Positions 1-12,791 of a stretch of DNA of 27,375 nucleotides are shown piece by piece. Source of the stretch: Comamonadaceae bacterium (GTDB taxonomy: Bacteria; Pseudomonadota; Gammaproteobacteria; Burkholderiales; Burkholderiaceae); the NCBI GenBank assembly GCA_947374535.1, contig CANCCJ010000032.1, positions 1 to 27,375 on the forward strand, written 5' to 3'. Each line of letters starts with the position of its first letter. Within the stretch, counting starts at the first letter, position 1. Made by a program: the position numbers and the translations under genes. A model generated the notes under the pieces. The model did no database searches and was not told where the DNA came from. It was given only the letters and a program-made list of their open reading frames with translations.

Positions 1-207
1 GCGGGGTTGGAGGATTTACGCATGCATGATTTGCGGCACAGCTTTGCGAGTGCGATGGTGAACTCGGGGATGACGCTGTATGACGTGAAAGAGATTTTGG
101 GGCATGCCAACATCAAGACGACGCAGCGGTATGCGCACTTGTCTAACCACCGGTTGAGGAAGGCGGCTGAGTCGGTTTCGGACTTCTATGGCGATCAGGG
201 GTGGTGA
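1..207 (+). CDS. Tyrosine recombinase/integrase, C-terminal fragment (5' end outside window)
   Basis: The reading frame is open from base 1, so the gene begins upstream and only about 68 C-terminal residues are visible. They carry the last part of a tyrosine recombinase catalytic domain: an HDLRHSFAS stretch (the HxxR motif), LGHANIKTTQRYAH (the second conserved His and the Tyr nucleophile, Y of TQRYAH) and a basic tail. Such enzymes cut and rejoin DNA through a 3'-phosphotyrosine; family members include XerC/D and phage or island integrases. The stop overlaps the convergent cysQ end by 13 bases. The tail looks intact with all expected residues, so there is no sign of a pseudogene here. Whether it is an island integrase or a housekeeping recombinase cannot be decided from this fragment. 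Confidence 0.88.
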   Translation, partial: AGLEDLRMHDLRHSFASAMVNSGMTLYDVKEILGHANIKTTQRYAHLSNHRLRKAAESVSDFYGDQGW

Positions 208-989
208 TGGATGTGCGTGAGCAAATCACGCGATGCAGCCGCCACGAAGTGCGGGTTGAGGATGGGGTGGTCTAGACCGTAGCGTAAGGGGTGCGCGTTG
301 AGGTCAGTCACGACACCACCTGCAGCTTCCAAGACGGCTTGGGCCGCCGCGGTGTCCCATTGGCTGGTGGGGCCAAAGCGGGGGTAGACATCGGCCAAGC
401 CTTCGGCAATGCGGCAAAACTTGAGTGAGCTGCCGGCTGCTAAAAAGTGGTGTGGAGTGGCAAGGCGCTGGAGCCATGCGTCCAGCGCCTGTGTGCCGTG
501 AGAGCGACTGCCGATGACACGCAAGGGCGAAGGGGCTGTGGCGGGCGAGGTGCAGATGGCGCGAAGGCTGGTGGCATCGCGCTTCCAAGCGCCTAAAGTT
601 TGGGATGCGTAAAACAGTTCATCGCGTGCGGGGGCAAGGACCACGCCGGCAATGGGGCGGCCTTGATGCACGAGGGCGATGTTGACGGTGAATTCATCGT
701 TGCGTTTTAAAAACTCTTTGGTGCCATCTAGTGGGTCAACCAGAAAAAAGGTGGCGTGGGTTTGCGGATTGGCAGAGGTTGATTCCTCAGACAAGATAAA
801 GACGTTGGGGAAGTGTTGTTCGAGGCCTTGGCGTATCACGCGGTCGGCGCGCAAGTCTGCTTCGGTTAAGGGAGAGGCATCGTCTTTTTGCCAAGTTTGA
901 CCACCATGGCGGTAGACATCCATGATTTGTTCGCCTGCTTGTTCCGCAAGGTGACAGAGGGTTTGTAAGTCGGTTTGGCTGAAGATCAT
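195..989 (-). CDS. cysQ: 3'(2'),5'-bisphosphate nucleotidase CysQ
   Basis: A 264-residue inositol-monophosphatase-fold enzyme that hydrolyses 3'-phosphoadenosine 5'-phosphate (PAP, and PAPS) to AMP (APS), recycling the product of PAPS-dependent reactions in the cytoplasm. Visible family motifs are the metal-binding SEE (residues 67-69), DPLDGT (85-90) and [15 protein letters not shown] (from 211), all in the expected order. Length is typical for the family. Its ATG overlaps the stop of the upstream APS kinase gene as ATGA, so the two are translationally coupled. The pairing of PAPS synthesis with PAP removal makes functional sense. General inositol monophosphatase activity is the main alternative, made less likely by the cysC coupling. 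Confidence 0.93.
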
Positions 990-2389
990 GGGCGCAGCGA
1001 TGTGGTGAAAAGAGAGATGCGTTCGATACAGTCTTCTTGGGAGGTGTCTACGGTGCGCAGATGGATTTCGGGTGACTCTGGCGGCTCGTAAGGGCTGTCG
1101 ATGCCTGTGAAGTTTTTCAGTTCGCCTTTTCGGGCTTTTGCGTAGAGGCCTTTGACATCGCGTTGTTCACAGATTTCAAGGGGGGTGTCGACAAAGACCT
1201 CGATGAATTCGCCCTCCTGAAACGCTTGGCGTGCCATGAGGCGTTCCGCACGATAGGGGGAGATGAAGCTCACCAACACAATCAGCCCTGCATCGACCAT
1301 GAGTTTGGCAACTTCTGTCACGCGTCGAATGTTTTCAACGCGGTCGGCCTCGGTGAAGCCCAAGTCGCGGTTGAGCCCATGGCGCACGTTGTCGCCATCG
1401 AGTAGATAGGTGTGTTTGCCTTGCGCGTGAAGGCGTTTTTCTAGGAGGTTTGCCAAGGTGGATTTGCCCGACCCCGATAGTCCTGTGAACCAAATGCATT
1501 GGGGGTGCTGGTGTTTTTGGGCTGCACGGTGGGCTTTGCTGAGTTCGAGGGCTTGCCAATGGATGTTGCTTGCGCGGCGTAAGGCAAATTCAATCATGCC
1601 GGCGCCAACGGTTTCCCGGGTGACCGGGTCCATCAAGGTGAAGCCCCCCATGACGCGGTTGACCTTGCTAGGCTCAAAGGCGAGGGGAGCGCTCGTCGAG
1701 AGATTGACGGTGGCGATGCCATCAAGGGCGAGTGTTTTCGCCGCGAGATGTGCGCCGGTGTCGATGTCTTCTTGGTATTTGATGGCGGTGATGGTTGCGG
1801 TGACTTCTTGGGCTGCCAGTTTCATCAGGTATTGGCGCCCAGGTGTCATGGCATGCGCACTCATCCATAAGAGCTTGGCTTCAAATTGATCGGCGATTTC
1901 TTCTGGGCCGTCGACGGGCCGATTCTGTGTGTCCAAAGTGTTGAGGTGCTGGATCAACGTAGGGCCTGTGTACCAACCCATGTGCTCGCTTGGACGAGGT
2001 ATGTTGCCGCCAGTCAGCTCTGACAATGGAATGAGCTGGATGGTTTGGCGTTGAAGATCGGTTGTCAATCGACGGCAGTCCGCTTCTATGGCATTAAAGG
2101 TTTGCGCACTGAAAGCCACTTGATGGGTGGGTTTGATGACAAAAACCACATGCCGAATGCCCATCATGGCTGCAATTCGAGTGTGGCGTCTGGTTGTGGC
2201 GAGGATGCCTTTTTGTGCATCAATCCAAATGATGGCGACATCCGTCGTGGAGGGCTCGTCCACCACGTCAATATTCGCTGATCGCAAGTATTCGATAAGG
2301 GCGCGCCGCTCATCGTCAATGCCTGCGTAGGTGATCACTCGCAGGTGATGTGCAACGCCTTGGCCGGATCTAGCTAGATGTGTGTTCAT
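986..2389 (-). CDS. cysC: Adenylylsulfate (APS) kinase with degenerate CysN-like N-terminus
   Basis: A 467-residue protein. Residues about 295-467 form a complete APS kinase, which phosphorylates APS to PAPS: P-loop GLSGSGKST (303-311), [10 protein letters not shown] (331-340), SFISPYR (374-380) and the [19 protein letters not shown] region. Residues 1-273 align by eye with sulfate adenylyltransferase subunit 1 (CysN) but with large losses. The P-loop position reads [11 protein letters not shown] instead of GxxDDGKSTL. The switch regions with DTPGH are missing, NKMD is replaced by IKPT, and the middle beta-barrel is absent between [11 protein letters not shown] and [15 protein letters not shown]. 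The C-terminal CysN barrel (GRQYLMKL to [12 protein letters not shown]) is kept. A normal CysN-CysC fusion is about 630 residues. No CysD is in the window. The kinase is expected to work; the front part cannot bind GTP in the usual way. The start at 2389 has no strong ribosome-binding site. Confidence 0.9.
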
Positions 2390-2455
2390 GCGTGCTATTT
2401 TCGATTTGCGAATGCGCTATCTTAGACATGTGTTATCCTATATGAAGTTTCTTAT

Positions 2456-3142
2456 ATGAAAAATTCAACCCTCATCGTTTCTCTTTCGCCTACACCTCAG
2501 CAAGCGCAAAGTTTGCTGGCGTTGCAGCGTGCGTTTGCCGAGGTTTGCAATGCCATTGCGCCGACGGTGCGAGAAACGAGATGCTGGAATCGTGTGACTT
2601 TGCATCACTTGGCCTACCGTTCCTTGCGTGAGCGGTTTCCGCAAGTGGGGTCGCAAATGGTTTGCAATGCCATTTATTCGGTCTCTCGCACCTGTCGATT
2701 AATTTTTCAGTCCCCTGGCAGTCCTATGCATATTCAGAGGCTGGCTAATAGGCCTTTGCCATTGCTGCAGTTTTTGTCCAGCTCCCCCGTGTATTTTGAT
2801 CGCCACACCTTGAGCATTCGTCATGGTGGGTTATCGATGTATACGTTGGATGGCCGAATGCGTTTCCAGCTCAACCTTTCCCCAGAAGAGGAAGAGCGTT
2901 TTGCCACAGCGCGACTTCAGGAAATTGTTTTACGTGGCACGGGGCAGCAGTTCTCGCTGAGCTTTAGTTTCGGGGACGAGCCTGTGCAAGTGACGGGGAC
3001 GTTACCTGTTGAGGCTGTGTGGCCGCAATACGTGGTGCTGAATCAGAACGAAGATGGCACAGAGTTTCCGTTGCCAAAAGACTTGATACAAACATTGGCT
3101 GGGCTTGAGTCGATGCCAACCCAACCCGGAGTGAACAGATGA
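2456..3142 (+). CDS. TnpB/IS605 OrfB-derived protein lacking the RuvC nuclease domain
   Basis: A 228-residue protein resembling the non-catalytic N-terminal half of TnpB. Residues 4-10 fit the first strand (TLIVSLSPTPQQ). Residues 13-85 fit the helical REC part, with NRVTLHHLAYRSLRERFP and GSQMVCNAIYSVSR matching the TnpB-style 'N-K-x-x-L-H-x-L-x-Y-x-x-IRE... QM-x-x-RAI-x-x-V' pattern. Residues 111-139 (PVYFDRHTLSIRHGG, then SMYTLDGRMRFQL) and about 157-173 fit the return of the WED barrel just before RuvC. From about 180 the sequence diverges. There is no DxG RuvC-I motif, no later catalytic Glu/Asp region and no CxxC zinc finger, so nuclease activity is not expected. The stop overlaps the start of the secretion ABC gene as ATGA. 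A weak GAAG site precedes the ATG. Homology is by eye and function is unknown; RNA binding or a regulatory or adaptor role is inference. Confidence 0.72.
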   Translation: MKNSTLIVSLSPTPQQAQSLLALQRAFAEVCNAIAPTVRETRCWNRVTLHHLAYRSLRERFPQVGSQMVCNAIYSVSRTCRLIFQSPGSPMHIQRLANRPLPLLQFLSSSPVYFDRHTLSIRHGGLSMYTLDGRMRFQLNLSPEEEERFATARLQEIVLRGTGQQFSLSFSFGDEPVQVTGTLPVEAVWPQYVVLNQNEDGTEFPLPKDLIQTLAGLESMPTQPGVNR

Positions 3143-4908
3143 ATCCACAACAAATGGGCGCTAAGCCCAAGGCCGTGCTGAAGAAAGCACTTCGTGATTT
3201 AGGGGAGGGGAGTTATGGCAAAGTCATTCTCTATAGCCTCATCGTTGGGGTGTTGTCGCTCTCTTCGACCTTCTTCATGCTGGAGGTCTACGATCGGGTA
3301 GTCAACAGTCGCAATGGCTTCACGCTGGTGATGCTGTTGCTGGCAGTGATTGGCGCTTATGTGATGCTAGAAATGCTGGAGTTGGTGCGTGCCGGCATCA
3401 TGCACGGCGTGGCGCAGAAATTGGATGCTGCTTTTTCGACGCAACTCTTCAACACGGCTTTTGAGGCCAGGCTCAAGGGCTTGCCCGGGGGGACCACTCA
3501 GTCGTTGACTGATCTTAAAACGATCCGTGATTTTTTACCCTCCAGCGCTGTGATGGCGGCTTTGGATGGCCCTATGTCTCTGGTGTGTTTGTTCATCGTC
3601 TTCATGGTGAGTCCTTGGCTGGGCGTGTTTGCCTTGATTGGCGCTGTGGTGCAGGTATGGATTGCTGTACGGACCGAGAGCAAAACTATGCCGGTTCTGA
3701 CCGAGGCCAACCGTGCCGCAATTGATGCGCAAAACTATGCCAATGGCACGTTGCGCAATGCGCAGGTGATTGAGGCGATGGGAATGATGGGCTCAATCCA
3801 CAAGCGTTGGATGGGAAAACAACGCAAGTTTTTATCGATGCAAGCGATGGCATCAGACACAGGCGGTACCAACAACGCCAGTTCCAAGTTTGTTCAGACC
3901 ATGCAGTCTTCTTTGATTTTGGGGGCTTCGTGCTGGTTGACGATCAAGGGACAAATGCTTGGTGGCGGCGGCATGATGATTGTGGCGTCAACGCTTGGTG
4001 GCAAAGTTTTGACTCCGCTGGTTCAATTGGTGGCTCAGTGGCGCGTGGTGGTGAATACGCGTGATGCTTACCAACGGCTCGAAACAGTGCTCAGCGCTTT
4101 CCCTGTGCGTGAGGCGGGAATGCCTTTGCCTGCGCCAAAGGGGTTGCTCACAGTCGAGGGCGTGGTTGCTGGCGCGCCTGGCAGTCCGATACCTATTTTG
4201 AAGGGGGTTAACTTTGCCGTGCAACCGGGCGAGTGTGTGATGTTGATCGGCCCATCGGCCGCTGGCAAAACGACACTTGCGCGATTGATGATGGGTTTGT
4301 GGCCAACTTCTGGCGGCAAGGTGCGTCTAGATGGCGCTGATATGTACAGCTGGAACAAAACAGAGCTGGGACCTCATTTGGGGTACTTGCCTCAGACAGT
4401 GGAGTTGTTTGATGGCACCGTTGCTGAGAACGTTGCCCGCTTTGGTGATGTGGACATGGCTGAGGTCGAGCGTGTTATCAAACAGGTTGGTTTGACAGAC
4501 ACCATTGCTGCGTTGCCCGAGGGAGTGAATACGCGGGTAGGTGAGGACGGTGCGATTTTGTCCGGCGGCCAGCGCCAGCGTGTCGCATTAGCGCGTGCCA
4601 TCTATGGGACGCCGAAATTTCTGGTCTTGGATGAACCAAACTCAAGTTTGGATGAGGCAGGTGAACTTGCTTTGATGGATACCTTGCGCTACTTGAAAGC
4701 GCAAGGCTGCAGCGTGCTGGTGATCACACATCGCACCAGTGTGCTGCCAGCAGCAGACAAGGTGTTGATGTTGCGTGATGGTCAAGTCGCAGCCTTTGGT
4801 CCACGCGATGAAGTACTTGCTGCATTGCAAAAAGCCCAACAACAAGCGTTACAACAACAAATTGCCGCACAAGCGTCGCAAAACAGATCGATGGAGCCGA
4901 CTCGATGA
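3139..4908 (+). CDS. Type I secretion ABC permease/ATPase (PrtD/HasD-like), first of a tandem pair
   Basis: A 589-residue half-transporter that powers one-step export across both membranes. The N-terminal half has membrane segments (about residues 28-48, 60-80, 140-180 and 260-290). The C-terminal ATPase has Walker A GPSAAGKTT (371-379), signature LSGGQRQR (474-481), Walker B FLVLDEP (about 494-500) and an H-loop at VITHRTS. There is no N-terminal peptidase or peptidase-like domain, which fits the PrtD/AprD/HasD type rather than HlyB. The C-terminus ends in a Gln-rich tail (KAQQQALQQQIAAQ). The start overlaps the upstream TnpB-like gene by ATGA, and the stop overlaps the next ABC gene by ATGA. 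It probably forms a heterodimer with the next protein; a homodimer is possible. Cargo is most likely the nearby RTX protein. Confidence 0.93.
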   Translation: MNPQQMGAKPKAVLKKALRDLGEGSYGKVILYSLIVGVLSLSSTFFMLEVYDRVVNSRNGFTLVMLLLAVIGAYVMLEMLELVRAGIMHGVAQKLDAAFSTQLFNTAFEARLKGLPGGTTQSLTDLKTIRDFLPSSAVMAALDGPMSLVCLFIVFMVSPWLGVFALIGAVVQVWIAVRTESKTMPVLTEANRAAIDAQNYANGTLRNAQVIEAMGMMGSIHKRWMGKQRKFLSMQAMASDTGGTNNASSKFVQTMQSSLILGASCWLTIKGQMLGGGGMMIVASTLGGKVLTPLVQLVAQWRVVVNTRDAYQRLETVLSAFPVREAGMPLPAPKGLLTVEGVVAGAPGSPIPILKGVNFAVQPGECVMLIGPSAAGKTTLARLMMGLWPTSGGKVRLDGADMYSWNKTELGPHLGYLPQTVELFDGTVAENVARFGDVDMAEVERVIKQVGLTDTIAALPEGVNTRVGEDGAILSGGQRQRVALARAIYGTPKFLVLDEPNSSLDEAGELALMDTLRYLKAQGCSVLVITHRTSVLPAADKVLMLRDGQVAAFGPRDEVLAALQKAQQQALQQQIAAQASQNRSMEPTR

Positions 4909-6593
4909 AAATTCCCGAAGTACTCGCGCGTAGCCAGTTAGGGCGAAGCATTTGGACCTTTAGGCGAGAGTTTGTCTGGGTAGGTGTCTTTAGTTTTTTT
5001 GCCAACTTACTGATGCTCTCTCCCACGTTGTTCATGTTGCAGGTGTTTGATCGCGTGATGATCAGCCAAAACGAGTTCACATTGATTGGTTTGATTCTTG
5101 TGATCAGTTTGTTTTTCGGGGTGATGGCGTTTGCGGAGTGGATTCGATCGCGACTCTTGGTTCGCGCGGGTGTGCGCTTTGATGAGTTTTTGAACTCGCA
5201 AGTATTCAAGGCCAGTTTTGATGCAAATTTGAACCAAGTCGCCAACAATCCCATTCAATCGTTCAGTGACTTGACCAACCTGCGTCAGTTTTTGACGGGT
5301 AATGGCATCTTTGCCATCTTTGATACACCTTGGACGCCAATCTACATCATTGTTTTGTTCATGATGAATTTCTGGTTAGGTTTTGTTGCCATCATTTTCA
5401 CAGGGTTTTTCATTGCCCTGGCTTGGTATAGCCATCGCATCACCGCAGCAGGCAATGAACGCGCGAATCAAGCGCAAATCAAAGCCAATACCTATTTGAA
5501 TGGAAAGTTACGGCATGCAGAGACCGTTGAGGCGCTGGGCATGCTTGCTAATTTGCGCCGCCACTGGTTGGTGTTACACGGGACACAAAATGTGGAAGCA
5601 TTTGAGGCGCAACACCTGCAACATCAGGTGCAGGCTTTCGTGAAGTTTGTTCAATACAGCCAGCAGTCTTTGGTCTTGGCATTGGGCGCGTTATTGGCGA
5701 TTCGTGGTGAAATTTCTGCCGGGGCCATGGTGGCTTCCAATGCGTTGGTCGGCAATGCTTTGCGTCCCATCAGCGTGTTGGTGTCGACTTGGAAGCAGTT
5801 TGCAGATGCCCAAGCGTCTTATGGTCGTCTGGAAAAGCTGCTTGAGGACCATCCTGAACGCGAAGCTTCACATGCCACTGATGTTGTTCGAGGCCAGATT
5901 ACCTTGGAGAACCTAGTGGCGACAGCCCCTGGGCGTAAAGACCCAATTTTGCGAGGTTTGAACGTCAGCTTCAATGCCGGCGAGGTCGTCGCGATTGTGG
6001 GGCCCTCAGGTGCAGGCAAATCCACATTGGCACGTTGCATCATCGGAATTTGGCCCAATGTGACGGGGCGCGTTCTGTTGGATGGACAAGACATTTCCAC
6101 ATGGTCGCGCGATGAGTTGGGTCCTCACTTGGGCTATCTGCCACAAGACATTGAATTGTTTGAAGGCACGATTGCGGAGAACATTGGACGTTTCAGTGAT
6201 CTCAAGCCAGAGTGGGTGATTGAAGCGGCGCAGCGCACGGGCATCCATGACATGGTTCTGCGTTTCCCGAAGGGATACGACACACAGATGGGCGAGGCTG
6301 GAGGCTTGCTTTCCGGCGGGCAGCGCCAGCGCGTGGGATTGGCGCGCGCAATTTATGGAAATCCAGCGATGGTCGTGCTTGATGAGCCAAACGCGAATCT
6401 GGATGAGGCAGGCGAAGTCGCTTTAATCAAAGCAGTGAAAGAGCTTCGCGACCAAGGACGTACCGTGTTCATGGTGGTGCACCAACAAAACATATTGAGT
6501 GTCGCGGATCGCGTGCTGGTGCTCAATGAGGGTGTGATTAAGCAGTTTGGGCGACTGGCGGTAAACCCCGCGATAGCAGCTCCACAGGCATAA
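4905..6593 (+). CDS. Type I secretion ABC permease/ATPase (PrtD-like), second of a tandem pair
   Basis: A 562-residue half-transporter related to, but clearly different from, the preceding gene product. The membrane domain occupies about residues 20-300; the ATPase has Walker A GPSGAGKST (366-374), signature LSGGQRQR (469-476) and Walker B MVVLDEP (about 489-495). The H-loop residue is in VVHQQN. Both nucleotide sites therefore look competent in both half-transporters, unlike heterodimers in which one site is degenerate. The start codon lies in the ATGA overlap with the upstream ABC gene, giving strict coupling. Immediately downstream are the adaptor and outer-membrane genes, completing a type I system. 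Family and role are clear; the heterodimer assignment is inferred from the tandem arrangement. Confidence 0.93.
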   Translation: MKIPEVLARSQLGRSIWTFRREFVWVGVFSFFANLLMLSPTLFMLQVFDRVMISQNEFTLIGLILVISLFFGVMAFAEWIRSRLLVRAGVRFDEFLNSQVFKASFDANLNQVANNPIQSFSDLTNLRQFLTGNGIFAIFDTPWTPIYIIVLFMMNFWLGFVAIIFTGFFIALAWYSHRITAAGNERANQAQIKANTYLNGKLRHAETVEALGMLANLRRHWLVLHGTQNVEAFEAQHLQHQVQAFVKFVQYSQQSLVLALGALLAIRGEISAGAMVASNALVGNALRPISVLVSTWKQFADAQASYGRLEKLLEDHPEREASHATDVVRGQITLENLVATAPGRKDPILRGLNVSFNAGEVVAIVGPSGAGKSTLARCIIGIWPNVTGRVLLDGQDISTWSRDELGPHLGYLPQDIELFEGTIAENIGRFSDLKPEWVIEAAQRTGIHDMVLRFPKGYDTQMGEAGGLLSGGQRQRVGLARAIYGNPAMVVLDEPNANLDEAGEVALIKAVKELRDQGRTVFMVVHQQNILSVADRVLVLNEGVIKQFGRLAVNPAIAAPQA

Positions 6594-6610
6594 CAGTTAA
6601 GGACAGAGTC

Positions 6611-7915
6611 ATGAGTAACAAGTGGAAACAATTTGGGCGAAATTTATTAGCGCCATCAAAAAAAAATTCAGACATCACCGACATCGATGATGTGAAGGAT
6701 TTGGGCGCACATACGGACACCAATGCCCCCATTCGTTTGGGTTTTTGGGTTTTGGTGGTGGGTTTTGGTAGCTTCTTGCTCTGGACGGCGTTTGCGCCGC
6801 TAGATGAGGGCGTTTCAGCCCAAGCCTCAGTTTCTATCGAGACACGTCGCAAGACGATTCAACACCTCAGTGGTGGCGTCGTGCGACAAGTTTTGGTCAA
6901 GGAAGGCCAATGGGTCAAAGAGGGCGAAGTGCTGGTCGAGTTGGACGAGGCTACCGCCAAGGCGAACTACCAAGCCGTGCGTCAAAACTACATGAGTCAG
7001 CGCGCGACAGAGAGTCGTTTGTTGGCTGAGTTGAGTGGCGCTTCTGCGATCAAGTTTCATCCAGACTTGGTCAAGGCAGCAAATGACCCTTTGGTGCAGC
7101 AGCACATGCAAACGCAGCGTGAGTTGTTCCAGTCACGTCGCTCCTCCAACATGGCAAGCACCTTGGGCGTAGCGACAATGCTTGAAAATCGTCATGCCCA
7201 AGCTGCTTTGCAATCCAAACAGCTAGATTCGCTGAAGGAGTTGGCTGCCGAGGGCTATGCGTCTCGCAATCAGGTGCTGCAAATGGAACAGTCGCAAGCG
7301 GAATTGCGCGCTGTGATTGCAGATCTCACCTCGAACTTTGCGCGTGTACGCCAAGAGTATTTGAAAGAAGTGTCGACCCAGCTCGCAGATGTGCGCCGCG
7401 AAGTTCAGTCGGGTCAAGAAAAACTTACCGCTGTGACAGAAGATTTGGCACGCACCCAAATTCGTAGCCCAGCAGAGGGGCAGGTGGTCGGACTGACGCT
7501 TGGTTCTACGGGCGGGGTTGTGAGCCCTGGGCAGCGCTTGATGGATGTGATTCCTAAGGGCGAAGCGTTGGTTTTGGATGCCAAGGTTCCTCCAAATCTT
7601 ATTGACCGAGTGTTTGCGGGTGAAGATGCCGAAGTGCGCTTTGCCACTTTTGCTAACTCTCCCCAGTTGGTACTCGATGGCAAGCTTGTGTCAGTGTCTA
7701 GCGATGTGATCACCGAGCAGGGGGCAATGGGTAGCGTGAGCTACTACTTGGCTCGCGTTGAGATTACGCCAGAGGGGTTGCGTCAATTGGGCAAACGAGT
7801 TATGCAGCCTGGTATGCCTGCCGAAGTGTTGCTGAAAACTGGTGAGCGTAGCGTATTGACTTACCTCTTGCACCCACTGACTAAACGTTTGGCTGCGGCC
7901 ATGAAAGAGGAGTAA
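6611..7915 (+). CDS. HlyD/PrtE-family periplasmic adaptor of type I secretion
   Basis: A 434-residue membrane fusion protein that bridges the inner-membrane ABC pair to the TolC-type channel. It has a short cytoplasmic N-terminus (1-40), one membrane segment (about 42-62, LGFWVLVVGFGSFLLWTAFA) and a first lipoyl half (TRRKTIQHLSGGVVRQVLVKEGQWVKEGEVL). A long helical coiled-coil section follows (about 115-270). The second lipoyl half contains TQIRSPAEGQVVGL, and a beta-barrel follows with the C-terminal PGMPAEVLLKTGERS signature of HlyD proteins. An AAGGA ribosome site sits upstream in the 17-base gap after the ABC gene. Length is typical of PrtE/HasE. Confidence 0.94.
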   Translation: MSNKWKQFGRNLLAPSKKNSDITDIDDVKDLGAHTDTNAPIRLGFWVLVVGFGSFLLWTAFAPLDEGVSAQASVSIETRRKTIQHLSGGVVRQVLVKEGQWVKEGEVLVELDEATAKANYQAVRQNYMSQRATESRLLAELSGASAIKFHPDLVKAANDPLVQQHMQTQRELFQSRRSSNMASTLGVATMLENRHAQAALQSKQLDSLKELAAEGYASRNQVLQMEQSQAELRAVIADLTSNFARVRQEYLKEVSTQLADVRREVQSGQEKLTAVTEDLARTQIRSPAEGQVVGLTLGSTGGVVSPGQRLMDVIPKGEALVLDAKVPPNLIDRVFAGEDAEVRFATFANSPQLVLDGKLVSVSSDVITEQGAMGSVSYYLARVEITPEGLRQLGKRVMQPGMPAEVLLKTGERSVLTYLLHPLTKRLAAAMKEE

Positions 7916-7918
7916 GCC

Positions 7919-9274
7919 ATGCCTATAGCTCGCTTCGCTTTGCGCCTACCCGCATTGGCTTGTCTCGTGTGGGCGTTCAATGCAAGTGCTCAGGATAGCT
8001 TGTCTGATGCTGTTGCAGCTGCGCAGTCCAAAGATCCTGCCTTACAGTCCGCTAGCCTTAACCGTGAGGCCGCACGTCTCAACATCTGGATAGCAGGTTC
8101 ACGTCTTTTGCCGCAGTTGACGTTTCAAGAAACACGCCAAAACACCAACCAGACCACGACCCAAGACACGATTGCAGGACCGGTTGCGCGTGACTTTGTT
8201 GGGCAGTCGTACAACAAGCAGTTGAGTTTGCGCCAAGGGGTGATTCGCGCCCGTGACGTCGAGGGATATCGACAAGGGCACCTGCAGTTTGAGTACGGCG
8301 ACCAGAAGTACGTGTCTGCACAAGCAGACTTGTGGTCGCGCGCGACGGGGGCTTGGCTTGATGTGCTAGCAGCGCACTCGTTGGTGGATGTTTACTTGCG
8401 TGCTGTGCAGTCTGCCAGTGAGTCTGCACAGCAAGAAATCAAGCGTTATAAAGTCGGTGACGGTACCAAGGACAGCCGAGCAGAAGCTTTGGCGCAGTTG
8501 GCGCAAGCCAAGGCCATGTTGCTGGACTCTGAGTTGAATTTGAAGGCGCGTGAGCGTGCCTACATGCTCTTGACGGGGTTGCCGGGTGAAGGTTTGGCAA
8601 AGCGCCGCTTGCCGATAGAGTCGACCGTCAAGTTTGACGGCAGTCAACGCGATGAGCTTTGGAGCTTGGTGCTGTCGACGGCACCAGAGCTTCGTGCGGC
8701 GCGGGCGACACAGAATGTGAGTTTGTCTCGCGCCAATCAAGCCTTGTATGACCATCTTCCCACGCTGGATTTGGTGGCCAGCGCATCGTCAGCACAAAAC
8801 GATTCCACCAACACTTTGGGTTACCGATATACCAATCGGCAGGTCGGTGCGCAATTGGTGGTGCCTCTGTTTTCGGGCGGTGGGGTAGAAGCCAGTCGAC
8901 GTCAAGCGGTTGCCAGTTACGAAGCCAGTGTGGCCGATGGTGAAGCCTTGTTGATGCGTGTGGAAACGCAGTTCATGGCTGACTGGGCTAGTCAAGCGGG
9001 TTTGCTAGAACGGGCGCAAGCCGCACGTAGCTTGGTCGTCGCCGCGCAAGAGCAACGCCGTGCGGCTGAGTTGGGGCTTGCCAAGGGTTTGCGCACTTGG
9101 ACTGAATTGAGCAATGCAGACCTTTTATTGGCCCGCCGCTCTAGCGACTTGGTGAATTTACAGGTCTCACTCTTTAAAACCCAAGCGCGTATTCTTTCAT
9201 TGCTTCCCATTCAAGTACCAGCGTGGGATGAATGGGTCAAAAGTCTAGACAGCGCGAGCCAACAGGGTCGGTAG
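7919..9274 (+). CDS. TolC-family outer-membrane channel protein
   Basis: A 451-residue outer-membrane efflux protein with a signal peptide (residues 1-24, basic start, hydrophobic core, cut predicted after NASA and before QDS). The mature protein shows the repeated helical TolC pattern: LSDAVAAAQSKDPALQSASLN near the start, LWSRATGAWLDVLAA in the first repeat and ELRAARATQNVSLSRANQALYDHLPTLDLVAS opening the second repeat. The VPLFSGGGVEASRRQA motif is also present. It should form the trimeric outer-membrane duct for the upstream ABC-HlyD machinery. A GAGGAG ribosome site at 7907-7912 is embedded in the end of the adaptor gene, and only three bases separate the two reading frames. It is the last gene of the operon, meeting the convergent Thr-rich gene seven bases on. 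Confidence 0.94.
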   Translation: MPIARFALRLPALACLVWAFNASAQDSLSDAVAAAQSKDPALQSASLNREAARLNIWIAGSRLLPQLTFQETRQNTNQTTTQDTIAGPVARDFVGQSYNKQLSLRQGVIRARDVEGYRQGHLQFEYGDQKYVSAQADLWSRATGAWLDVLAAHSLVDVYLRAVQSASESAQQEIKRYKVGDGTKDSRAEALAQLAQAKAMLLDSELNLKARERAYMLLTGLPGEGLAKRRLPIESTVKFDGSQRDELWSLVLSTAPELRAARATQNVSLSRANQALYDHLPTLDLVASASSAQNDSTNTLGYRYTNRQVGAQLVVPLFSGGGVEASRRQAVASYEASVADGEALLMRVETQFMADWASQAGLLERAQAARSLVVAAQEQRRAAELGLAKGLRTWTELSNADLLLARRSSDLVNLQVSLFKTQARILSLLPIQVPAWDEWVKSLDSASQQGR

Positions 9275-9281
9275 GCCTACC
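9270..9281. other. Perfect 12-base palindrome between convergent stop codons
   Basis: GGTAGGCCTACC is a perfect palindrome that includes the TolC-gene stop codon and ends one base before the complement of the opposing stop codon. It is followed directly by CCTAGG. It has no loop and no T-tract, so a classical intrinsic terminator is not supported. A protein-binding site or chance are equally possible. Confidence 0.3.
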
Positions 9282-10070
9282 CTAGGCTGCTTGAGGTTCC
9301 TGATCCATCGCTTTGATGAGCGCTGATTCAACACTGGCAGAAGCTGCGGTGCTTGCACCGGTTAAATATTGCTGAACCAGATCGCCATACGGGGCGGTTT
9401 GTGTCGCGTTGGTCGCTGCATTGGGTGTCAGCGAAGGTGTCACCGTTTCAGAGGCTGCTGCGACGCTTGTTTCAGAGGTCGGTGTGCTTGGTGTGGTGGT
9501 CGCCGTTGCGCTGGTGTCGTTACTTTGGTAGTTCAACTGGGCCTCAATCGTGCTCAGGAGGTCAAAGATACTTGACGATCCAGCGTTGGACGACGTCCCA
9601 GAGGTCGTAGGTGTAGATGTAGGTGTCGGTGTCGGTGTCGGTGTCGGTGTACTCACCACCGCTGTGCTGACTGCTGTGGGCATTGCCGGGGTGGCGGGCG
9701 GAAGGGCGTCGAACGTTGTCAGCGGCGTGCTCGCGGTCGGTGATGGCTCTGTTGCGGTAGGCGTCAGCGGCTTGCCCATCATTTGTCGAATGGCTTGCAA
9801 GAACGTGTTGCTTTCAGGCACGATGCCGACCACGCTGAGGGCATCGAAGACATAGTCTGACGTTGGCACAGTGGTCGAGGATACCGTCGCTGCGAGCACT
9901 TCGGGGCTGAGAGACTGGGTCGGCAGTATGGATGACTGTGCCAACATGTCTTTGAAGCCGCTGGCAGTTGTAGTCGCGTCTGCGGTACTGGCTGTCCCCG
10001 TGACCGTGCTAACAGCGGTGCTGTTTAAGACGTTATTGGTCGTGTTACTCGAAATTGTGTTCACTGACAT
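9282..10070 (-). CDS. Unrecognised Thr/Ser/Ala/Pro-rich protein, 262 aa
   Basis: No family is recognised. The start at 10070 (MSVNTISSNTT) was chosen over a GTG at 10100 because a strong GGGAGGA site lies five bases upstream. The GTG would also lie upstream of the predicted -24/-12 promoter start. No signal peptide or membrane segment is visible. The chain is low complexity, with a Thr/Asn/Ser-rich N-terminus and a (TP)n run in the middle encoded by hexamer repeats. A few more ordered patches are present: FKDMLAQSSILPTQ, DYVFDALSVVGIVPESNTFLQAIRQMMGKP, SIFDLLSTIEAQLNYQS and, near the end, YGDLVQQYLTG and SALIKAMDQ. It lies between the secretion operon and the RTX gene and is divergent from the latter. 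A secreted or surface-associated partner is possible but not shown; no RTX repeats are present. Confidence 0.75.
   Translation of the reverse strand: MSVNTISSNTTNNVLNSTAVSTVTGTASTADATTTASGFKDMLAQSSILPTQSLSPEVLAATVSSTTVPTSDYVFDALSVVGIVPESNTFLQAIRQMMGKPLTPTATEPSPTASTPLTTFDALPPATPAMPTAVSTAVVSTPTPTPTPTPTSTPTTSGTSSNAGSSSIFDLLSTIEAQLNYQSNDTSATATTTPSTPTSETSVAAASETVTPSLTPNAATNATQTAPYGDLVQQYLTGASTAASASVESALIKAMDQEPQAA
9622..9651 (+). repeat. Hexamer tandem repeat GGTGTC inside the Thr-rich gene
   Basis: Four perfect GGTGTC copies (9622-9645) and a fifth with one change (GGTGTA), preceded by degenerate copies from about 9606. On the minus strand this encodes a Thr-Pro run. Six-base units allow copy-number change without frameshift. 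Confidence 0.9.
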
Positions 10071-10075
10071 CACAG

Positions 10076-10082
10076 TCCTCCC
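10076..10082 (-). promoter_or_regulatory. Ribosome-binding site GGGAGGA that fixes the Thr-rich gene start
   Basis: Reading the minus strand, GGGAGGA is followed by five bases and then ATG at 10070. It is among the strongest Shine-Dalgarno matches in the window and supports the 262-residue start over the longer GTG start. Confidence 0.8.
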
Positions 10083-10101
10083 ATAAATCGTGAGTAACAC
10101 A

Positions 10102-10117
10102 AGCAGATTTCATGCCC
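10102..10117 (-). promoter_or_regulatory. Candidate sigma-54 -24/-12 promoter for the Thr-rich gene
   Basis: Minus strand GGGCATGAAATCTGCT against the consensus TGGCACGNNNNTTGCW: the GG and GC dinucleotides are exactly ten bases apart, with three mismatches elsewhere. The predicted start near 10091 would leave a leader of about 20 bases containing the GGGAGGA ribosome site. That geometry supports it, but the match alone is modest. Confidence 0.45.
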
Positions 10118-10218
10118 GACAAAACACGTCGCTCGTCAAATTCCGCCGATCTCATTTAAAGCTAATCCAGTTGGTGCCGATAAATAGGGTGACTGTGATA
10201 TAAATCTTTAGCTATTCA

Positions 10219-10234
10219 TGGCACACACTTTGCT
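10219..10234 (+). promoter_or_regulatory. Strong sigma-54 -24/-12 promoter match before the RTX gene
   Basis: TGGCACACACTTTGCT matches TGGCACGNNNNTTGCW at all fixed positions but one (A for the seventh-base G), with GG and GC ten bases apart. The predicted transcript start is about 10245, one base before the ATG at 10246. The mRNA would therefore be nearly leaderless, or translation would begin further in. An RpoN-dependent activator would be required; none is encoded in the window. Confidence 0.65.
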
Positions 10235-10245
10235 AAGTTGGAACA

Positions 10246-11904
10246 ATGACGACAACATCAGCCTTACTCACCCGCGCTGCTCGGATTTTCATGCAGGATC
10301 AACCGTCTGCCGCCGAGCTCACAAGCTGGGTCATGCGTGTTGACCAAGGCGTGGTCTCTTTAGATCAGCAAATACTGGATATCTCGCATGCAACGAAGCG
10401 AGAGTTATCGAATACAGACGAGTTGGCACGTTTGTTTTTCGTGCTGTTAAATCGAGCGCCCGACTTGGCGACATTCTCTGAGGCCATGCGAATGATGGAG
10501 AAGGACGGTTGGTCTTTCCAAAGCATTTGTAAGCTAGGTTTGAGTATGAGCGCGGGGCAACTCAGTGACAGTCTAGGGCTGTCGAACCGACAGTTTGTCG
10601 ATAAGCTGGCTGCGCTGATGTTTGAGAGTCCAGTGGACGTGGTTGGTTTATATGCGGTCATGGATACCTTGGTGACTGGGCTCAACAACGGCGTGATCAC
10701 TCGGGCGCAACTGTTGGACAGTGCCATGCGCTACGACGACCCTAATGTGGTTTATCGGGAATATGTACAACCTGCGCTGCTTTATTTGGCGGCAGCTGGT
10801 CGTGAAGCATCGCTGGCCGAACTCGACAGCGGCAAATCTTTGCCTGAACTTGCCCTGACGCGGCAAATTTTGACCGCAGCCGGAGAGTCGCCATTTGCCA
10901 CTTTTCCCTCGTACACCGTCAACGCCTCTTCTGCGACCCTCAACGGCACATTCACAGACGCTTTTGAGATGAACCTGAACACGCACACCAGCTCGATTGG
11001 TGTGAACACCCAGTACAAAATGTTCTTGCTGAATGCGGCGGGGACCATGGAACAGAGCAAACAATATGACACGACCTTGCTGTCTGGCATCACGAACCTT
11101 GACGGCAGTGGGTTAAATCCGGCCCTCAAAGGGTTTACGGTGACGGCCAATTCTGGGGGCTCAATCATCAAAGCCCCAAACGCGAAATCAACGCTGACGG
11201 GGGGCGATGGCTCTGATGTTCTCACTGGGGGGGCGGCGGCGGATACGCTGTCAGCCGGGGGCGGCGACGATAGCTTGGTTGGTGGTGCTGGCGATGATGT
11301 GCTCGTGGCTGGCACTGGGAACGACAACCTGACGGGTGGTCTTGGCAAAGATACGTTCACGTTCTGCAATTCAAATGCGCTTTTGGCGCAGGGCGGCATG
11401 ACAACGATTACAGATTTTGGTAATGATGTGGACGTGCTCAACTTTGGACCGCTGCAGGGCAACACGGTCAAGCCTGCGAATGTCGCACTGATTGTGGGCT
11501 CCAGTGATCGCAACTCTGGATTCGTTTTGACCAAGTCAGCCGTCAACAACAGCGTGTTCTTGGTCAACAACACTGGCAACTGGGTTGACGCCGTCAACAA
11601 TGGCTTAGCACCGCGTACGCCTGAGCAGATCGCAGACTTATTTACTGAAGTTGTGCCGAACCCTGATGTGCCTGACACTACCATGGTTCAACATGTCACC
11701 TTTACCAAACCGCCTGTGCTCGGCGCGACTTACTATGTGATCTCATATGAGGCCGTTCATGGTGCAGATATTTGGATGGTGTCCAACTTCAGTGATGTCC
11801 TCTCGGTCACTGACAACGAAGTTCAACTGATTGGACACATCAACCTCAGCTCCTATGGCAATTTATGGAATGCCCTTCAAGTGCCCGGGGCTGTGGTTGC
11901 TTGA
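10246..11904 (+). CDS. RTX protein with DUF4214-like N-terminal region, probable type I secretion cargo
   Basis: A 552-residue protein with no Sec signal peptide. Residues about 5-200 are helical and resemble the DUF4214-type repeats often found on RTX proteins (LARLFFVLLNRAPDLATFSEAMRMM, later LSNRQFVDKLAALMFESP). Residues about 316-375 hold five to six calcium-binding nonapeptides of GGxGxDxLx type (GGDGSDVLT, GGGDDSLVG, GAGDDVLVA, GTGNDNLTG, GLGKDTFTF). They are followed by ITDFGNDVDVLNF, typical of RTX export modules. About 150 residues follow with no recognised enzyme motif. Repeats would fold on calcium outside the cell after export by the adjacent ABC/HlyD/TolC system. The ribosome-binding site at 10246 is weak, and the sigma-54 element puts the transcript start at the ATG. 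The next Met (residue 16) falls inside the first helical unit and has no better site. Confidence 0.88.
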   Translation: MTTTSALLTRAARIFMQDQPSAAELTSWVMRVDQGVVSLDQQILDISHATKRELSNTDELARLFFVLLNRAPDLATFSEAMRMMEKDGWSFQSICKLGLSMSAGQLSDSLGLSNRQFVDKLAALMFESPVDVVGLYAVMDTLVTGLNNGVITRAQLLDSAMRYDDPNVVYREYVQPALLYLAAAGREASLAELDSGKSLPELALTRQILTAAGESPFATFPSYTVNASSATLNGTFTDAFEMNLNTHTSSIGVNTQYKMFLLNAAGTMEQSKQYDTTLLSGITNLDGSGLNPALKGFTVTANSGGSIIKAPNAKSTLTGGDGSDVLTGGAAADTLSAGGGDDSLVGGAGDDVLVAGTGNDNLTGGLGKDTFTFCNSNALLAQGGMTTITDFGNDVDVLNFGPLQGNTVKPANVALIVGSSDRNSGFVLTKSAVNNSVFLVNNTGNWVDAVNNGLAPRTPEQIADLFTEVVPNPDVPDTTMVQHVTFTKPPVLGATYYVISYEAVHGADIWMVSNFSDVLSVTDNEVQLIGHINLSSYGNLWNALQVPGAVVA

Positions 11905-11921
11905 GGTAATTTACACGCCTT

Positions 11922-11937
11922 AGGCAAACAAGTTGCT
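11922..11937 (+). promoter_or_regulatory. Candidate sigma-54 -24/-12 promoter for the uppS/polysaccharide operon
   Basis: AGGCAAACAAGTTGCT has a perfect -12 half (TTGCT), GGCA in the -24 half, and the required ten bases between GG and GC. The first T and the C and G after GGCA differ from consensus. The predicted start near 11948 gives a leader of roughly 100 bases before uppS. It lies in the only intergenic gap before the operon (11905-12050), where no clear sigma-70 promoter or terminator was seen. Confidence 0.45.
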
Positions 11938-12050
11938 TCCATGTGAGGTTGTGCTTGAACTATTAATAGGTTGAGGCTTGAGGCTGAAGTCTGTGCTTAG
12001 CATTCGAGTTAATAACGTTCCCGAGTAGTTGGGACACGTATCATTACCTT

Positions 12051-12791
12051 ATGCAAGTCACACAAGAAAAAATCGGTCAGCATCGTGCCATTCCTTTGCA
12101 CTTGGCCATCATCATGGATGGCAATGGGCGGTGGGCGCAACAAAGGCATATGCCCCGCAGGTTGGGGCATTACAAGGGTGCCGCCCGTGTTCGTAGTTTG
12201 ATTGAATATTGCACTCGCGCTGGCGTTCAGTGTGTGACGCTTTTTGCATTCAGCACTGAAAATTGGCAGCGCCCTGAAGACGAAGTACAGGCTTTGATGG
12301 CGCTATTTGTTGAATATCTCGACAAAGAGTTGCCCGCGATGTTAGCGAATCAGGTGCGCTTCAGGGCCCTTGGTGCCTTGGATCGCTTCAGCTCTGAGGT
12401 GCGTGAGCGAATTGAAAAGGCTCAAAAGCAAAGTGCGAATAACCATGGGCTGTTACTGAACGTGGCTGTGAATTATGGGGGACGATGGGATATCTTGAAT
12501 GCGGTGCAAACTTGGCAGGACGAGCACCCACAAGCGCCATTGCGCACACTCCAACCTGAGGCCCTTTCGGACTACCTGAGTACGCGTGGGCAACCAGATT
12601 TAGATTTGATGATTCGCACGGGAGGGGAGTCGCGTATCAGCAACTTCTTGCTGTGGCAAGCGGCCTACGCCGAGCTGTATTTCACGGACACGCTATGGCC
12701 TGACTTTGATGAAAAGGCGCTGCAGGCCGCTTTTGAATGGTTTGCGACCCGAGATCGTCGCTTTGGACAAGTTCAGAAGTCCGCCATCTAG
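12051..12791 (+). CDS. uppS: Undecaprenyl diphosphate synthase (isoprenyl transferase)
   Basis: A 246-residue cis-prenyltransferase that extends farnesyl diphosphate with isopentenyl diphosphates to undecaprenyl diphosphate, the precursor of the lipid carrier for cell-envelope glycans. Visible motifs are HLAIIMDGNGRWA (catalytic Asp23), GHYKGA, FAFSTENWQRP and the C-terminal RTGGESRISNFLLWQ with AELYFTD. All key residues are present and length is normal. It opens the polysaccharide operon instead of sitting with envelope housekeeping genes (cdsA, dxr), so it is probably a second, dedicated copy; the rest of the genome is not visible. The ribosome-binding site is weak. The flippase gene starts 28 bases after its stop. 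Confidence 0.94.
   Translation: MQVTQEKIGQHRAIPLHLAIIMDGNGRWAQQRHMPRRLGHYKGAARVRSLIEYCTRAGVQCVTLFAFSTENWQRPEDEVQALMALFVEYLDKELPAMLANQVRFRALGALDRFSSEVRERIEKAQKQSANNHGLLLNVAVNYGGRWDILNAVQTWQDEHPQAPLRTLQPEALSDYLSTRGQPDLDLMIRTGGESRISNFLLWQAAYAELYFTDTLWPDFDEKALQAAFEWFATRDRRFGQVQKSAI

Follow-up and report, generated by a model that had tools for sequence, protein, structure and literature searches.

The closest described relatives of the gene studied here are TnpB and the proteins domesticated from it. The domesticated TnpB descendants named in one study, the Cas12 effectors and TldR, are RNA-guided, and TldRs have a RuvC domain inactivated by mutation and have apparently kept guide RNA binding (PMC13418256). 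In ISDra2 TnpB, the DNA duplex carrying the target-adjacent motif (TAM) is bound in a cleft between WED and REC, and a surface made by WED and RuvC carries the RNA scaffold (PMC10097598); seven TAM-contact residues are reported (PMC10097598; also PMC11844463).

Here we describe a gene in a 27,375-nucleotide stretch of DNA, called the window below. Like TldR, its product is a domesticated TnpB which is tied to non-transposon genes and is a proposed repressor. Unlike in TldR, RuvC has been deleted in this family rather than mutated, and no guide RNA was matched by Rfam at gathering thresholds in window positions 1-12100. The WED-REC lobes of Cas12f and Cas12k differ in that they belong to full RNA-guided effectors, and their identity to our protein is 7-13% over the aligned part. 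The operon headed by the gene is of the PrtD/HlyD/TolC type I secretion kind, but it differs from such systems in having its ABC genes in tandem and in that Pfam, NCBIfam and PHROGs give the first gene no name. We propose, with a probability of about 0.65, that the domesticated TnpB half reads the TAM and binds DNA without a guide, and that it thereby represses its own secretion operon.

A TnpB-derived gene heads a type I secretion operon

The gene (2456..3142, plus strand) starts with ATG and encodes 228 aa, and an ATGA overlap joins it to the next gene (3139-4908); both the reading frame and the coupling had been described correctly in the initial annotation of this DNA. Homology, predicted fold and conserved columns identify the product as a TnpB-derived protein that lacks RuvC. 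Residues 1-175 (2456..2980, +) make up the WED-REC module, which is the TAM-reading half of TnpB, and residues 176-228 (2981..3139, +) form a C-terminal tail in place of RuvC, predicted with a pLDDT of 57-87 per 10-residue block. After residue 228 there is no RuvC or zinc ribbon, and ABC1 is already under way.

The genes that follow on the same strand encode two PrtD-type type I secretion ABC exporters, ABC1 (3139..4908; TIGR01842, 599 bits) and ABC2 (4905..6593; TIGR01842, 641 bits), an HlyD-type periplasmic adaptor (6611..7915; TIGR01843, 296 bits) and a TolC-like outer membrane channel (7919..9274; TIGR01844, 144 bits, under the curated cut-off of 225). The position at the head of an exporter operon, recognised earlier, is supported. 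An RTX-repeat protein (10246..11904, +; PF00353, 1e-11) is a possible export substrate, judging from its position and its repeats. The RTX gene was rejected as a constant neighbour, as upstream neighbours differ between loci. The RTX gene is separated from the secretion operon by a T/S/P-rich ORF of 272 aa on the minus strand (9282-10100), for which Pfam gave no match. Among the window ORFs neighbouring the gene, no TnpA was recognised by eye.

The retained half is the WED-REC module of TnpB

Sequence searches of Pfam, NCBIfam, PHROGs and the PDB with the family gave no useful match; it was a profile search across genomes, together with the fold, that revealed the link to TnpB. In the profile search, full-length TnpB was matched by the family profile with an E value of 1.1e-38, and hhalign aligned the family with TnpB at a probability of 100 (E 1e-40, 34% identity across 169 columns). 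The similarity is to the WED-REC part of IS200/IS605 TnpBs of the Mariprofundus ferrinatatus / Thermochromatium tepidum type (PF01385 plus PF07282), with which the family has blocks such as NRVxLH and SQMxCxA in common; unlike these TnpBs, the family lacks both RuvC and the zinc ribbon, and it has an acidic tail and a conserved exporter operon. The predicted N-terminal fold is WED-REC. The TnpB origin suggested by the initial annotation is thus confirmed by profile search, hhalign and fold. Structure prediction returned the WED-REC fold and not an unrelated one, the profile comparison found similarity to TnpB, and a survey of neighbourhoods found conserved linkage to PrtD-like ABC genes in 79/80 loci and not scattered fragments.

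The same annotation took the retained half mainly as a holder of guide RNA, and this premise is not supported: in ISDra2 TnpB the WED/REC cleft grips the TAM duplex (PMC10097598). Deletion of RuvC spares WED-REC, so the whole cleft for double-stranded, TAM-containing DNA is retained. The family profile gave a probability under 1 against ISDra2-like TnpBs (small alignments), and the ISDra2 link hence rests on the fold and on a weak residue alignment, with about 10% identity and an uncertain register. In this alignment, the TAM-contact residues Y52, S56, K76, F77, Q80, T123 and N124 of ISDra2 TnpB correspond to Y54, R58, S66, Q67, C70, S120 and L126 of the window protein, and a manual mapping (Q80 to Q67) is one helical turn off the placement given by the alignment (F77 to Q67, Q80 to C70). 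Four of the seven equivalents (Y54, R58, Q67 and C70) are invariant in 63/63 relatives and in 47/47 TnpBs (hypergeometric p 0.018, with 30 of 172 positions universal). For S66 and S120, near-invariance is confined to the family, and L126 is variable.

A large, conserved family has lost RuvC

In a protein search, 4,796 of 5,125 candidates matched the 228-aa protein at E<=1e-3, and among GTDB representative genomes tblastn confirmed a relative in 209 of 225 pattern-matching stretches, which places the family beyond chance. The 120 matches listed of the 4,796 were 200-343 aa in size, and no Pfam domain was found in any of them.

The best 80 of the 209 confirmed relatives (loci L002-L081) were used as the set of loci; they bear names from Burkholderiales and Rhodocyclales, or just 'Betaproteobacteria/Proteobacteria'. 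Their reading frames span 181-317 aa in 79 loci, L011 being excluded, and L076 (181 aa) and the start of L055 being clipped by contig ends. A PrtD-type ABC gene follows in 79/80 loci, and the next gene is a homologue of ABC1 in 78/80; the exceptions are L076, which stops at the contig end, and L069, which has a single ABC gene that is closest to ABC2. An alignment of 63 relatives contains 48 invariant columns, including W44, R46, V47, H50, H51, Q67, C70 and 112-VYFDRHTL-119, and the landmarks by which TnpB had originally been recognised fall within the family's best-conserved blocks. In 13 of 14 close pairs, picked by hand, dN/dS was 0 to 0.124, and the 14th was saturated and gave an undefined value. 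The conserved operon, the invariant columns and this purifying selection bear out the earlier view of the gene as domesticated. Truncated transposon debris was rejected on the basis of uniform length, conserved operon and the same dN/dS range.

No member among the 63 was matched by PF01385 at E<=1, indicating that the RuvC nuclease domain is absent, and the zinc-ribbon/TNB domain PF07282 is absent from the window protein and from the 63 family members. In the genome assembly of the window (77% complete), there was no match to PF07282 at E<=1e-3. With frames of 181-317 aa throughout, the loss of RuvC and the zinc finger, which had been noted for the single protein, holds family-wide. Past residue 165, the tail motif P[EDQH][YF][VLI] occurs in 61/63 relatives, and the tails are acidic, with a mean net charge of -7 in the 63 relatives. 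As a speculation, the acidic tail may sense export or a partner.

A protein of this descent might act in the manner of TldR, with a guide RNA encoded elsewhere leading it to the promoter. Nuclease-dead RNA-guided TnpB repressors provide a precedent (PMC13418256), and WED contributes to the RNA binding of TnpB. However, RuvC, which shares in the contacts with the RNA scaffold, is lost, and besides the Rfam result given above, the stop codon overlaps ATGA, GTGA or TTGA in 57/78 loci, so that an adjacent downstream guide has no room. Moreover, in a 60-genome sample, four of the seven carriers (G000, G009, G024 and G055; some incomplete) had no PF07282 match, which leaves them with no obvious TnpB guide RNA. 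We therefore regard RNA guidance as quite unlikely.

An 11-bp site encloses the start codon and recurs upstream

When upstream regions were read, an 11-bp word, TCCTATATGAA, was found to enclose the start codon, with more copies upstream. Without preselection, the start-codon 11-mer is exactly TCCTATATGAA in 57/75 loci. Within 300 nt and allowing at most one mismatch, the site is present in 74/76 regions (75 loci and the window), at least two sites are present in 71/76, and the total is 156 sites. TATATG is invariant in all 156, and the remaining positions are 92-99% conserved, which is partly an effect of the one-mismatch selection. The arrangement varies: 41/76 regions have inverted pairs with steps of 22-29, and there are direct pairs (steps of 12-14) as well as other layouts; in L044, no site was found.

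The window belongs to the four of 76 upstream regions with a '++ 14' direct-repeat arrangement. Its putative operator copy 1 is an exact TCCTATATGAA (2436..2446, +), the sole exact occurrence in the 77%-complete assembly, and copy 2 is TCTTATATGAA (2450..2460, +), which has one mismatch and contains the ATG (2456-2458); the two form a direct repeat with a 14-nt step. At two mismatches, the window taken alone has 5 sites, a number matched by 15/100 shuffles and thus not above chance, and so the case for the site rests on the relatives.

Of the 51 loci in which an upstream copy is inverted, 48 have their best-scoring -10-like hexamer beginning 12-17 nt 5' of the ATG; in L005, L007, L009, L043 and L078, a TTGACT -35-like box directly adjoins that copy. 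Such hexamers are best matches, and their placement is partly expected. This spacing suggests that the mRNA is near-leaderless and that the sites cover the core promoter. A simple scan of window positions 2300-3200 found no sigma-70-like promoter.

The same layout might be read at the level of RNA, with the protein acting as a translational autoregulator that recognises UCCUAUAUGAA where the mRNA begins and blocks initiation. Exact coverage of the start codon by one copy in those 57/75 loci, a near-leaderless mRNA as implied by the -10-like hexamers, and the ancestral RNA-binding activity would all fit. Nevertheless, more copies, in either orientation, sit 5' of the -10-like box and would not be part of that mRNA, and the loci with GTG or TTG starts (L008, L013 and L019) keep the site, yet away from the start codon. 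In L023, where tolC precedes the TnpB-derived gene, three tandem copies (207-240) stand ahead of tolC, so the site belongs to the promoter of the operon and not to one start codon. Translational control is accordingly very unlikely in our judgement. For the RNA-binding regulator or adaptor guessed at in the initial annotation we found no positive evidence, and the conserved operator favours a DNA-binding autoregulator and makes RNA binding less likely. The sign of the regulation can also be considered. Some activators have repeated, variably spaced sites, and the protein could in principle activate from the operator, but the sites extend over the presumed start point and -35/-10 spacer, positions typical of repressors, and activation is highly improbable.

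The site tracks the gene and is also found at mobile tnpBs

In a census of 20 genomes selected for carrying the gene, the exact word was present in all 20 carriers, and 38 of its 39 occurrences were at the gene locus (the exception is L107, in G372); the reversed control word occurred once, in 1/20 carriers. A regulon is unsupported in these 20 carriers, given that 38/39 exact words are at the gene itself. Of 200 genomes drawn from the window's family, presumably Burkholderiaceae, 16 have the full gene, one has it clipped at a contig end (G435) and 183 are without it, three of the latter showing weak partial matches; the distribution is thus patchy. The exact word was found in 14 of these 16 carriers, always at the gene, and the other two are G024, which has a one-mismatch form, and G025, which has none within one mismatch. 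Exact pairs were found in 10/16 carriers versus 0/183 non-carriers (Fisher p 4e-13). Stray single exact words were present in 19/183 non-carriers, and the reversed control word in 3/200 genomes.

Exporters without the gene were also examined. Of 30 exporter loci retrieved with ABC1, 19 were examined and 13 of these had no gene, and no site with at most one mismatch was found upstream of any of the 13 in about 1.4 kb each (0.5 kb in L203). These site-less, gene-less exporter loci include G044, G477 and G396, in which ABC1 shows 54-55% identity. The 11-bp site follows the gene rather than the exporter.

Outside the operon, ten phage-contig loci encode TnpBs that are 51-61% identical to the Mariprofundus TnpB, and eight distinct loci among them have tnpB without detectable tnpA in the sequence covered (L173 duplicates L168). 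These tnpB-only relatives share the start-codon site of the family: the exact word is at the tnpB start codon in 4/8 (L166, L168, L170 and L174, the last clipped by a contig end), a one-mismatch form in 3/8 (L165, L167 and L169), and L172 has two mismatches on that strand. The upstream regions of L165, L167 and L172 are 83-85% alike, and other pairs are at most 50% alike. At the tnpB start, the site is absent in the tnpA-linked L094, L148 and L171 and in a 33-36% identical group (L175-L178). Judged from these sequences, the site is older than domestication, since it is present at the tnpB start codons of mobile tnpB-only elements. A lone mobile tnpB brings the site along, which makes TnpB itself the likely binder and suggests that the TnpBs of the phage-contig clade (L165-L174) may regulate themselves.

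These observations also bear on whether an unrelated host transcription factor binds the site, the TnpB-derived protein being a secretion adaptor or chaperone without a role in nucleic-acid binding. Such a role would agree with the tight linkage to exporter genes and with the conserved acidic tail, which could contact the ABC transporter, and non-carriers do hold stray copies of the word. However, the site goes with the gene and not with the exporter, and pairs occur at this locus only; the phage-contig mobile tnpBs that have the site would all require the same unlinked factor, and the positions shared with TnpB remain invariant. An adaptor is for these reasons unlikely, and we retain the DNA-binding autorepressor as the preferred reading.

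The site contains the TAM of the related insertion sequences

The TAM was read from the left flanks of the insertion sequences, which end in TCAT. Two insertion triplets (L162/L163/L164 and L165/L167/L172) are identical up to TCAT and no further, and the uninterrupted site L150, from a Mariprofundus relative, reads CATTCA and then A, versus CATTCAT in G068. The LE boundary is thus fixed independently by the two triplets, together with the partly matching L150; the single-copy cases G068, L161, L168, L169, L170 and L174 fit the TCAT boundary but were placed by hand. L171 also fits it, and L166 shows no LE. A search for more IS copies found none at E<=1e-60 among 369 genomes from the class to which the window belongs, and 398 genomes of its phylum at E<=1e-80 yielded only the already known IS copy. 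As a separate observation, L163 and L164, two short elements on one phage contig, have the LE and RE hairpins typical of this IS family about 100 nt apart and are apparently internally deleted copies.

Read as TTCATATAGGA, with TCCTATATGAA on the other strand, the site contains TCAT, and so do the 93 upstream copies; the ATGA inside TCCTATATGAA is the complement of this TAM. In the start-codon copies, the ATG is forced by position. The question of whether the TAM is part of the motif was set before the TAM was looked at. Since TCAT or ATGA is present by chance in 6% of random 11-mers (13% of site shuffles), its presence in the site is support and not proof.

Proposed mechanism and its implications

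In the mechanism that we propose, a tnpB lost the half with the RuvC nuclease and zinc finger and kept the WED-REC half, which in TnpB grips TAM-containing double-stranded DNA. The WED-REC cleft, without guide RNA, would bind the 11-bp site with the ancestral TAM TCAT inside. In most relatives, one site would be just 5' of the -10-like box and another would cover the start codon and the point where transcription presumably starts, and binding there would block transcription of the near-leaderless tandem-ABC type I secretion operon. The acidic tail may sense some signal.

A broader version of this reading, which we hold to be somewhat better than an even bet, is that the TAM-reading half of TnpB is by itself a guide-free DNA-binding module, by which mobile tnpBs would regulate themselves and from which bacteria would have made a transcription factor for a secretion operon. 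If true, it would be a second route for TnpB, leading from an RNA-guided nuclease to ordinary protein-DNA recognition in a large conserved family that keeps only the TAM reader, and mobile TnpBs would control their own expression through guide-free binding of a TAM-containing operator. It also yields hypotheses about what thousands of unnamed proteins do and about how a tandem-ABC secretion system is controlled in Burkholderiales and Rhodocyclales. What is new here is that an 11-bp site, present over the start codon and in the promoter, tracks the gene and is also found at mobile tnpBs. Among the matches listed in searches of the open-access literature, there was no RuvC-less TnpB regulator, nothing about TnpB linked to type I secretion and nothing relevant-looking with the letters of the site.

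Besides the family described here, three short proteins of 82-95 aa (L142:1435-1680, minus strand; L143:1447-1731, plus strand; L144:1465-1713, plus strand) match the family profile over its REC-like part (E 3e-8 to 1e-4) and belong to no Pfam family. They are encoded directly 5' of a polyphosphate-kinase-2-like gene, which was named by eye, and they are possibly a second, even shorter TnpB-derived family.
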